Shown: positions 24,903 to 28,930 of the stretch, in pieces | Numbering within the stretch: position 1 is the first letter of the stretch | Layout: each line of letters starts with the position of its first letter | Source: Alphaproteobacteria bacterium | GTDB taxonomy: Bacteria; Pseudomonadota; Alphaproteobacteria; Rhizobiales; Beijerinckiaceae | Length of the DNA stretch: 43,883 nt | Assembly: GCA_029979185.1 (NCBI GenBank) | Contig: JAPOIA010000004.1 | Coordinates: forward strand, 1-43,883 | Reading direction: 5' to 3' | Program-made: the position numbers and the translations under genes | Notes under the pieces: generated by a model | Seen by the model: only the letters and a program-made list of their open reading frames with translations | What the model was told of the DNA's origin: nothing | Database searches by the model: none

Positions 24903-27326
24903 CTACCCGCGCAGCGTCGCGCCGGTTTTCTTTGTCACTTCGGCGACGATCTTTCCGGCGACGGCCTCGATCTCGGCATCAGTCAGTGTCTTTTCGCGCG
25001 GCTGCAGCGTCACGGAGATCGCCACCGACTTCTTGCCCTCGGGAATGCCGGTGCCTTCGTAGATATCGAAAACGTTCACTCCGGCCAACAGGCTGCGTTC
25101 CGCCGATTGCGCGGCGCGCAGAATGTCGGCGGCGTTGACGCTGCGGTCGACAATGAAGGCGAAGTCGCGTTCAAGCGCCATGAACTCGGACATGTCGAGC
25201 TTCGGCTTTACCTTGGTCGGCTTGGCGCGCGGCGCTGGTACGGCATCGAGGATGATTTCAAAGCCGCAAACCGGTACGTCGATGTCGAAGGCTTCCAGCA
25301 CGGCGGGATGCAGTTCGCCGAAATGGCCGATAATGTTCTTCGGGCCGAACTGCAGGGTGCCGCTGCGGCCCGGATGCAGCCAGGACGGGCCGCCGGGTAC
25401 GACAGCCATGCCCTGCGCGGCAACGCCGAGCGCGCCGAGCATCGCCATGGCGTCGGTCTTGGCGTCGAATACGTCGATGGATTTCGACGCGCCAGCCCAA
25501 TGGCGGCCGGAGCCTGCCAGTTTTGCTGTGCCGGAGCGGACGGCGGCTGCGGCCTGGCGCTGGTCGCGCTCGCCTGCGCCAAGGAATATCTGGCCGACTT
25601 CGAACAGGCCGACATCGCGATAGCCGCGGTCGGCATTGCGGCCAACGGCTGCCACGAGACCGGGCATCAGGCTGGGGCGCATGTCGGACAGGTCCGAAGC
25701 GATCGGATTGGCCAGTGCCAGCTCCGGCTTGCCGCCGCCGAACATCTCTGCGCGGTCCTTTGAAATGAACGACCAGTTGACCGCTTCGACAAGGCCCTGT
25801 GCCGCCAGCGCGCGGCGTGCCTGGCTGGTACGCCGCTGCAGGACGGTCAGGATCGGTTTGGCGACGGTCGCCTCCATACGCGCCAGCGGTACGGATGCGA
25901 CGCGGTCGACGCCGGCTATACGGACGACTTCTTCAACGAGATCGGCCTTGCCTTCGACGTCTGGCCGCCATGTCGGCACGGTGACGGCGACATTGTTCCC
26001 TGTTCCTTCCACGGTGAAACCGAGCTTCTGCAGGGTTTCGATCTTTTCCTCGCGTGGCAGTTCGAGGCCGGTAAGCCGTTCCACTTCGCCAAGGGGGAAT
26101 TCGATCCTGTTGACCGGGTTCGGGACTTCTCCGGCGACGATCAGTTCGGAAGGCTCGCCACCGCACAGGTCCATCACCAGATGGGTAGCGAGTTCCGCGC
26201 CCGGCACACAGAAGGCCGGATCGATGCCGCGCTCGAAGCGATAGCGCGCATCGGTGATGATGCCGAGATCGCGGCCCGAACGGGCAATGTTCATCGGATC
26301 CCACAGCGCTGATTCGATCAGCACATCTTTCGTGCTTTCGTCGCAGCCGGATTCCTCGCCGCCCATGATGCCGGCGATGGATTCAACGCCCTTGTCGTCG
26401 GCGATGACGACAGTTTCGGATGCGAGCTCATAGGTCTTGCCGTCGAGCGCCAGAATCTTCTCGCCATCCTTCGCGCGGCGCACGACGAGATTGCCCGTAA
26501 CTTTCGCGGCATCGAAGACATGCAGCGGGCGGCCGCGGTCGAAGGTGACGTAGTTGGTGATGTCGACCAGCGCGTTTATGGGGCGCAGGCCGATGGCGCG
26601 CAGGCGCTTCTGCATCCATTCGGGCGAGGTGCTGTTGGTCACGCCGCGCACCATGCGCAGGGCGAAGGCCGGGGCGAGATGCTTGTCCTCGTCGGCGAAA
26701 TCGAGCGTCACGGAAACCGGGCAGGGGAACTTGCCCTCCGACGGTTTGATTGCATGGCCCTTCAGCTTGCCGATGCCGGCGGAAGCCAGGTCGCGGGCGA
26801 TGCCGTGGACGCCAGTTGCATCCGGGCGGTTGGGGGTAAGGCCGATCTCGATGACAGGATCGGAGAGTTTGGCGAATTCGACATAGATCTCGCCGACCGG
26901 CGCATCTTCCGGCAGGTCGAGAATGCCGTCATGGTCGTCGGATAGTTGCATCTCCGCGCCGGAACAAAGCATGCCATTGGACTCGACGCCGCGGATAACG
27001 CCCTTGCCCAGCGTCATGTCCTTGCCGGGGATATAGGTGCCAACCGGCGAAAAGACGCCTTTCATGCCGGTGCGGGCATTCGGTGCGCCGCAGACGACCT
27101 GCACCGGTTCCTTGGCCCCGGTATCGACCATGCAGACGCGAAGTCTATCCGCATCCGGATGCTGTTTCGCCTCGATGACGCGGGCAACGATGAAGTCCTT
27201 CAGCTTCGCTGCCGGATCGTCGACGCTTTCGACCTCAAGGCCGATCTTGGTGAGGGCCTCGCAAATCTCCTCCAGCGAGGCGCTGGTATCGAGATGGTCC
27301 TTGAGCCAGGAGAGGGTGAACTTCAT
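24903..27326 (-). CDS. pheT: Phenylalanine-tRNA ligase beta subunit
   Basis: [21 protein letters not shown]; tRNA-binding, B5 and FDX-ACB domains readable throughout. Confidence 0.97.
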
Positions 27327-27748
27327 TGTTTTGCTCCATCGAAGCCCTCCCCCCTTGCGGGGGAGGGTTGGGAGGGGGGCGGATGGACGCGACTGCGGGC
27401 GGCCTGCAAAATCAGGCTGGCGACGCGATCGCGGTTGTCGAGAATTTCTTCGTTGGTGAAACGCAGAACCTTGTAGCCGCGCTGAAACAGAAAATTGGAC
27501 CGGCGGCGGTCTGCACTTTCCACGTCAGGATCGTTGTGGTGAACGCCAGCCGCTTCTACGATCAATCTTGCGGAATGGCATACGAAGTCAGCGATGTATG
27601 GAGCTATCGGGGTTTGCCGCCGAAACGACAGACCGTTCAACCGATGCGCGCGCAACATCTGCCACAGGGCTTCTTCAGCCCGTGTCATCCGGCTTCGCAT
27701 CTCTTTCGCGTTGCGTCGTGTTGTTTCCGGTATGGTGCGATGTGGCAT
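27323..27748 (-). CDS. DUF559-domain protein (Vsr/PD-(D/E)XK endonuclease-like)
   Basis: [55 protein letters not shown]...[23 protein letters not shown]. Stop TGA overlaps pheT ATG (ATGA). Longer start possible at 27769. Confidence 0.88.
27345..27380 (+). repeat. Palindromic G/C-rich repeat, copy 1 (pheT-proximal)
   Basis: CCCTCCCCCCTTGCGGGGGAGGGTTGGGAGGGGGGC; 9-bp perfect stem CCCTCCCCC/GGGGGAGGG with loop CTTGC, then GGGAGGGGGGC. Confidence 0.9.
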
Positions 27749-27773
27749 TGAAATCGGGGACGGCATCAAGATC

Positions 27774-27810
27774 GCCCCCCTCCCTGGCCCTCCCCCGCGA
27801 GGGGGGAGGG
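27774..27810 (-). repeat. Palindromic G/C-rich repeat, copy 2 (pheS-proximal), inverted relative to copy 1
   Basis: Reverse complement CCCTCCCCCCTCGCGGGGGAGGGCCAGGGAGGGGGGC aligns to copy 1 with only loop/linker differences. Confidence 0.9.
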
Positions 27811-27829
27811 ACGTTCAGAACTCTTCACA

Positions 27830-28930
27830 CTAACTGGTCAGCCCGCCGGCCAGCGTCGGCAGATCGAGCGGGCGGAAGCCGTAATGCGACAGCCAGCGGA
27901 CGTCGGCCTCGAAGAAGGGGCGCAGGTCCGGCATGCCATATTTCAGCATGGCGATGCGGTCGATGCCCATGCCCCAGGCGAAGCCCTGATACTCGTCCGG
28001 GTCGATGCCGCAGTTGCGCAGCACATTGGCGTGGACCATGCCGCAGCCGAGGATTTCCAGCCAGTCCTCGCCCTCGCCGAAGCGGATTTCGCCGCCCTTG
28101 CGCGAGCACTGGATATCGACTTCCATCGACGGTTCGGTGAAGGGGAAGAAGGACGGGCGGAAGCGCATCGTCACATTCGGCACTTCGAAGAAGGCCTTGC
28201 AGAATTCTTCCAGGATCCATTTCAGATTGCCGAGGTGGGCCGTCTTGTCGATCACCAGCCCCTCGACCTGATGGAACATGGGCGTATGGGTCTGGTCGGA
28301 ATCGCAGCGATAGGTGCGGCCCGGGCAGATGACGCGGATCGGCGGCTTCTGGTTCAGCATGGTGCGTACCTGCACCGGGCTGGTATGCGTGCGCAGCAGC
28401 TTGCGCTGACCGTTCTCGTCCGGGTTGAAGAAGAAGGTGTCGTGCATCTCCCGGGCGGGGTGTCCTTCCGGGAAGTTCAGCTTGGTGAAGTTGTAGTCGT
28501 CCTGTTCGACGTCCGGCCCTTCGGCGATGGAAAACCCCATGTCGGCGAAGATCGCTGCCAGTTCGTCCATCACCTGGCTGATCGGATGAATGCGCCCCGT
28601 TGCGGCAGCAGGCTCGCGGACAGGCAATGTAACGTCCACCGTTTCGGAGGCAAGGCGGGCTTCCAGCGCAATCTGCTTGAGGACCGTGCGCCGGTTGGCG
28701 ATGGCGCTCGTCACCGTGTCCTTGACGACATTAATGGCGGCGCCGGCGGTCTTGCGTTCCTCCGGGCTCATCTTGCCGAGGGTGGCGAGTTTGGCGGATA
28801 CGGTGCCCTTCTTGCCGAGCGCGCCGACGCGCACGGCTTCGAGCGCTGCCTCGTCGGAAGCGGCGGCCACGGCGGAAAGGATTTCAGACTGCAGGGTTTC
28901 GAGATCGGACATGGATTCGAGATCGGACAT
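27830..28930 (-). CDS. pheS: Phenylalanine-tRNA ligase alpha subunit
   Basis: [28 protein letters not shown]; class II aaRS motifs ([28 protein letters not shown]). Confidence 0.97.

Follow-up and report, generated by a model that had tools for sequence, protein, structure and literature searches.

Introduction

The question raised by this locus is how a DUF559 gene with a nearly identical palindromic repeat at each side came to lie between pheS and pheT. The window is the whole stretch of 43,883 nucleotides that was analysed. It comes from an Alphaproteobacteria bacterium (Rhizobiales; Beijerinckiaceae; GCA_029979185.1, contig JAPOIA010000004.1, positions 1-43,883), and the assembly is 3.0 Mb in 433 contigs and 82% complete. 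The original prediction for the locus was a REPtron-like mobile unit in which a Vsr/PD-(D/E)XK-like protein takes the position of the RAYT. Known REPtrons and REPINs depend on RAYT (TnpA_REP) proteins, which are IS200/IS605-like (PMC2817692, PMC3116915, PMC8266576).

DUF559 proteins include E. coli YcjD (PMC1189080) and VsrA of Caulobacter, for which a Vsr-like role in mismatch repair is proposed in the one functional study of a DUF559 protein that was found (PMC12907096). VsrA, YcjD and NGO0050 (PDB 3HRL) belong to the same family as the window protein by Pfam and structure. VsrA is read there as a mismatch-repair nuclease, and that paper makes no mention of palindromes. Among open-licence papers, titles and abstracts give no link between DUF559 and palindromic repeats, and no link to DUF559 was found in the REPIN/RAYT and RIME/Bru-RS literature; an earlier description is possible.

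The DUF559 unit between pheS and pheT

The locus has the following features.

27830..28930 (-): pheS (phenylalanyl-tRNA synthetase alpha), host operon gene
27327..27829 (no strand): segment from pheS stop to pheT start, 503 bp; 10-18 bp in most relatives
27774..27810 (-): repeat 2, pheS side, inverted; hairpin CCCTCCCCC-CTCGC-GGGGGAGGG, inward tail CCAGGGAGGGGGGC, G4 motif GGGGGAGGGCCAGGGAGGGGGG
27323..27766 (-): DUF559 (PF04480) gene, 147 aa; ORF list, Pfam E=2.3e-36, AF2 model, Foldseek
27401..27721 (-): DUF559 domain core, Pfam profile match
27345..27380 (+): repeat 1, pheT side; hairpin CCCTCCCCC-CTTGC-GGGGGAGGG, inward tail TTGGGAGGGGGGC, G4 motif GGGGGAGGGTTGGGAGGGGGG
27327-27344 and 27811-27829: outer flanks of the insert, short; these include the likely pheT ribosome-binding site
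24903..27326 (-): pheT (phenylalanyl-tRNA synthetase beta), host operon gene

All three genes lie on one strand, and the DUF559 stop codon overlaps the pheT start (ATGA). As predicted, the single ORF between the repeats is a DUF559 gene on the strand of pheS and pheT (PF04480, E=2.3e-36; 124.4 bits against a cut-off of 20.6). The only other Pfam match, MTES_1575, is below the cut-off of that profile. A profile search of the assembly identified one DUF559 gene.

The coordinates predicted for the near-identical, inward-facing repeats are right, and the 23-nt cores (27345-27367 on the plus strand and 27788-27810 on the minus strand) differ at one base. The further claim that the window holds no other copy is upheld at up to three mismatches, and none of 100 dinucleotide shuffles of the window contained the hairpin. 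Elsewhere in the 3.0-Mb genome there are no close copies (0-1 mismatch) beyond the two DUF559 flanks, and the only hairpin found is a weaker one with 2 mismatches (C433:25328).

Each repeat is able to form a 9-bp hairpin (CCCTCCCCC/GGGGGAGGG) and has a G-rich tail on the gene side; in folding of the pheS-side copy, pairing of the hairpin with its own tail is slightly preferred. The G-rich strand of each repeat is a canonical G-quadruplex motif that reads towards the gene. The window has four canonical G-quadruplex motifs, two of them in 27345-27380 and 27774-27810. The repeat next to pheT is read through by the DUF559 ORF and encodes the C-terminal tail of the protein.

Comparison of pheS-pheT spacing in relatives was proposed as a check for an empty site. 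Most congeners with a readable junction have a gap of 10-18 bp (TAAGGAGAGAGACATG and similar), compared with 503 bp in the window, so DUF559 is not a fixture of this site in all relatives. This supports a DUF559/REP unit inserted between pheS and pheT in the window. The nearest relative (PheS 89% identical) is too distant for the insert junction to be fixed to the base. A few relatives have inserts in the gap that are unrelated to the DUF559 unit: congeners L075 and L079 have a DUF4160/DUF2442 gene pair (Pfam check in L079), and L062 and L083 have other inserts. The pheS-pheT gap looks like a recurrent insertion site within the genus.

Fold and conserved residues of the DUF559 protein

The AlphaFold (AF2) model of the window protein has a pLDDT of 86. 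Foldseek ranks 3HRL, a DUF559 protein, before the EDxHD homing endonuclease I-Bth0305I (3R3P; TM by target 0.72-0.77) and then Vsr (1CW0, 1VSR; TM about 0.5; E about 0.01). The sequence profile likewise finds 3HRL and 3R3P. The predicted fold of the window protein is EDxHD/Vsr-like PD-(D/E)XK and not HUH. Residues E31, D60, H77, and D86 are conserved and present in the window protein, and their order and spacing suggest that these columns are the EDxHD motif. EDxHD homing endonucleases (I-Bth0305I) and Vsr have this fold and the E-D-x-H-D pattern in common with DUF559. Unlike the homing endonucleases, the window DUF559 gene is free-standing and REP-flanked, with no intron or intein.

Position 73 is A in the window protein and D in 44 of 46 aligned sequences (ExDG motif changed to EAAG). 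The window protein also has H in place of Q at position 76. By its distance from the conserved H, the aspartate at position 73 is apparently equivalent to D115 of Caulobacter VsrA. Because this near-invariant residue is replaced, the window copy may be impaired, and loss or change of its predicted activity is possible.

Bracketing of DUF559 genes across bacteria

Enrichment of repeats at DUF559 genes is a central expectation of the original prediction, and it was found in both samples. The same repeat occurs on both sides (score >=18, inverted or direct) of 72/100 DUF559 genes, compared with 6/719 other ORFs at the same loci. In an independent class-wide sample covering many families, 15/29 DUF559 genes are bracketed (12/29 by inverted repeats) compared with 0/203 control segments, which were scored for inverted repeats only. 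With inverted repeats alone (score >=18), brackets were found at 46 of 80 DUF559 genes and 3 of 2707 control segments; these 80 named loci are mostly from Alpha-, Beta- and Gammaproteobacteria, with a few from other phyla. Gene-specific repeats are present on both sides in more than half of 30 same-family loci, and most of the 20-kb stretches (n=20) have bracketing DUF559 repeats when scored against their own local controls. The ORF and segment controls (6/719, 3/2707, 0/203) rule out general repeat density as the source of bracketing. In the main sample about 28% of the DUF559 genes have no detectable bracket, and in the independent sample the share is half. The collection scan used the narrower alignment A2, since A1, the broad one, was too diverse; the viral_contigs scan found no relatives. 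A single-contig 3.4-Mb genome from another family (G211, contig C1) has 10 DUF559 matches.

The bracketed units are short, with a median of 496 bp from one repeat to the other. Clear brackets are inverted in 42 cases and direct in 26. The prediction of inverted brackets is thus borne out in the window and in the majority, but not as a rule. Direct brackets are common, in many cases because each flank is a whole doublet, as in S. meliloti. A strict terminal-inverted-repeat transposon was considered but does not agree with direct repeats in a third of clear brackets. G4 motifs at DUF559 flanks read towards the gene in 78/200 cases and away from it in 24/200 (control 0.8%). DUF559 genes are co-directional with both neighbours in 26 cases and antisense to both in 8. 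Many occupy sites conserved across genera, including cysS-cimA, pdhC-lpd, and acnD-prpF (names read by eye from translated ORFs), and some of these have no repeats. Such conservation suggests that these genes stay in place and do not jump often.

Covariation of protein and repeat

Covariation of DUF559 with repeat sequence had been predicted, and both the Mantel and the within-genome tests found it. Across 91 bracketed genes, repeats are more alike where the proteins are more alike (Mantel rho 0.21, reached by 0/1000 permutations). Among paralogues within genomes G027, G036, and G079, rho is 0.53, a value reached by 0/2000 permutations. Paralogue pairs with a protein score >=0.8 have a repeat score >=0.7, and the remaining pairs have scores <=0.43. 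The correlation between genomes is weaker but positive (rho 0.20). Covariation is partly duplication of whole units. The protein closest to the window protein in A1 (51% identical) is from another genus (L031), and its locus has an identical 23-nt hairpin.

Dispersed copies, doublets and an empty site

Genomic dispersal of the repeats was assessed by pattern search. Genome G027 (6.9 Mb) encodes 8 DUF559 genes and has about 80 copies of the hairpin CCCTCCCCCCTTGTGGGGGAGGG (two mismatches). These copies are overwhelmingly +/- pairs about 104 bp apart, forming ~127-bp doublets with inward-facing repeats (REPIN-like). Three DUF559 genes on contig C59 of this genome have the same ends as the doublets at a spacing of ~441 bp. 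Identity among the three units is 86-87% and extends beyond the repeats, by ~67 bp on one side and ~41 bp on the other. One doublet also has the outer flanks of the DUF559 units, as would be expected of a deletion derivative. The site of one G027 unit is empty in congener G066 (flanks 82% and 78% identical, gap 167 vs 757 bp), and there is no repeat at the empty site. In S. meliloti, at least 39 places match the doublet flanking its DUF559 gene. Cognate repeats are dispersed in G027 and S. meliloti, but not in the window's own genome.

Some G027 doublets (L087, L091, L114) have a further outer inverted arm of ~30 bp (CTAGTGGTCTGCGTCAGCCAAATTGAAAGG), resulting in nested palindromes of roughly 200 bp. 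Two Sinorhizobium sites were rejected as full/empty pairs. At the smc locus, strain Ak57 retains a DUF559 remnant with its 3' side deleted, and at the second site DUF559 is present in both strains. The deletion in the S. meliloti Ak57 remnant (L215) ends at the repeat hairpin.

Repeat load and gene presence

Hairpins of the general type CCYTCYCCC-N5-GGGRGARGG were counted in 149 genomes of the family. Genomes with DUF559 have a mean of 9.7 hairpins and those without have 2.2 (p=9e-5; partial rho 0.32 given genome size). Comparison of pairs from the same genus gives a weak contrast (39 pairs more, 24 fewer, 37 ties). Six of the 33 genomes with at least 10 hairpins lack any DUF559 match above cut-off, and a search relaxed to E<=10 did not change this; either the gene was lost or is unassembled, or another enzyme is involved. 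Genomes G007, G039, G132, G134, G138, and G145 have 11-30 hairpins of the general type without DUF559, and three of them are <90% complete.

In E. coli, an even sample of 60 of the 5,426 complete genomes (37 with ycjD, 23 without) has a median of 14 places per genome for the repeat beside ycjD. The median is 15 in genomes with ycjD and 3 in those without (p=1e-9, phylogroup uncontrolled). ycjD occurs mainly in phylogroups A, B1, and C (PMC12817139), and phylogeny therefore confounds the contrast. At the E. coli sapF-ycjD-fabI locus (L211:2525-3250), repeat-like elements lie downstream of ycjD and none upstream, which is a one-sided version of the arrangement.

Comparison with RAYT REPtrons

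Y1_Tnp is absent from the window's genome (G000) and from 13 of 17 other genomes tested, which were chosen mostly for repeats. Within 1.5 kb of the Y1 loci examined in other genomes there is no CCCTCC-type repeat; some of these loci carry other terminal repeats (ATTACGGTGACA type). RAYTs were therefore rejected as the spreaders of the repeats, given the absence of Y1_Tnp in 14/18 repeat-bearing genomes and of CCCTCC-type repeats at Y1 loci.

The window has a cognate palindrome pair around its gene, and DUF559 units resemble RAYT REPtrons in placing the gene between two such palindromes. They are also alike in that the repeats are dispersed, in genomes other than the window's own, as solos and inverted doublets, the repeat sequence follows the enzyme, and there are usually few gene copies and many repeats. 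Unlike RAYT REPtrons, the enzyme is PD-(D/E)XK/EDxHD rather than an HUH tyrosine enzyme (the window protein is DUF559, not a PF01797-type Y1/HUH protein). The DUF559 REP is a hairpin plus G4 tail without the GTAG/CGTC tag of RAYT REPs, a tetranucleotide found at the foot of 3/91 arms, and the brackets are mostly inverted and in a third of cases direct. As the enzyme is not HUH and the GTAG tag is absent, the likeness is limited to organisation: a REPtron-like, putatively mobile unit is retained in that sense, and membership among REPtrons is not. A Vsr/PD-(D/E)XK-like protein probably occupies the RAYT position, as had been proposed.

Discussion

Bacterial REPs are spread by enzymes encoded within their REPtrons, and we consider a similar relationship probable here. 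In this reading, the segment between pheS and pheT is a REPtron-like unit, a DUF559 nuclease gene inserted with its own cognate REP pair, and the nuclease spreads the repeats. The unit would have the hairpin outside, the G-rich tail inside, and the DUF559 gene between. The cognate repeat, as a hairpin and/or a G-quadruplex, may be recognised by the nuclease and then cut or nicked, probably where it is exposed as a single strand during replication or transcription. Cutting would allow repeats to spread, either singly as solo REPs or paired as inverted doublets, and occasionally the unit that bears the gene may spread too. Support comes from bracketing, its taxonomic breadth, protein/repeat covariation, and the common ends of units and REPIN-like doublets, as well as from one empty site, the correlation of repeat load with the gene, and the nuclease fold. 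From these we infer the action of DUF559 on the repeats and the way DNA is copied.

DUF559 could instead be a resident or mobile Vsr-like repair nuclease in repeat-rich intergenic gaps, with REPs spread by something else landing beside it. The Vsr-like fold, the VsrA study (PMC12907096), and the many DUF559 sites conserved across genera agree with this, as do direct brackets alongside inverted ones and orphan repeats without DUF559. We nevertheless regard it as unlikely, because other ORFs at the same loci are hardly bracketed (6/719), repeat type varies among the paralogues of one genome and follows the protein, no RAYT able to spread the repeats was found, and G027 units and dispersed doublets have ends and outer flanks in common. 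The regular ~127-bp doublets with the ends of the unit are left unexplained by homing alone, and the G066 empty site has no repeat. Both points weigh against a free-standing, homing-endonuclease-like selfish gene whose product cleaves repeats, allelic or ectopic, and which is then copied into place when flanking repeats recombine. The repeats would in that case be homing targets and not offspring. This explanation is improbable, although I-Bth0305I (3R3P) is the next best sequence and fold match after 3HRL, the EDxHD columns E31, D60, H77, and D86 are conserved, and unit copies within one genome are alike only in the segment around the repeats.

The strong G+C hairpins lie between co-directional genes, and DUF559 genes co-directional with both neighbours outnumber those antisense to both (26 vs 8); both observations would fit a gene acquired horizontally and surrounded by ordinary elements of an operon, such as terminators, mRNA stabilisers or attenuators. 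The hairpins have no T-run, however, and one sequence recurs on either side of the gene, is specific to that gene and is also dispersed through the genome. Covariation and dispersal disfavour operon elements, and we give this explanation very little credence. Chance similarity of G+C-rich sequence has nothing in its favour except the low complexity of the hairpin, and it is refuted by the shuffles (0/100) and controls (3/2707, 6/719, 0/203).

Short palindromic repeats are widespread between bacterial genes. RIME and Bru-RS1 are named as rhizobial and brucella palindromes (PMC2573895, PMC3163539), and where PMC2573895 describes RIME or Sm-type repeats it gives their function as unknown. Like DUF559 repeats, RIME, Bru-RS1, and E. 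coli box C are short palindromic intergenic elements. Bru-RS1 is a 103-bp palindromic repeat. The ~127-bp two-hairpin doublets presumably resemble RIME, and we take the DUF559 repeats to be similar to E. coli box C; both likenesses are by description. Identity of DUF559 repeats with RIME, Bru-RS1, or box C is a lead. We know of no enzyme named so far for CCCTCTCC...GGAGAGGG palindromes. Tentatively, and with slightly less than an even chance of being right, DUF559 proteins propagate REPs as a second and independent enzyme class (PD-(D/E)XK instead of HUH) that acts on hairpin/G-quadruplex REPs, and they are the missing enzymes of widespread "orphan" CCCTCTCC-type palindromes in Pseudomonadota, possibly including RIME, Bru-RS, and E. 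coli box C.

Pseudomonadota commonly carry palindromes of the CCCTCTCC...GGAGAGGG type, which a DUF559 link would tie to a 12-17 kDa Vsr-like nuclease. The presence of ycjD in E. coli, the structure 3HRL, and the knock-out phenotype of Caulobacter vsrA make the question testable with existing strains. A mismatch-repair role, as proposed for VsrA, may exist as well and could be a domesticated derivative. If the reading is true, DUF559 would gain a function, the enzymes that disperse short repeats would include a further fold, and mobile Vsr-like nucleases would appear to have been recruited to repair by domestication.
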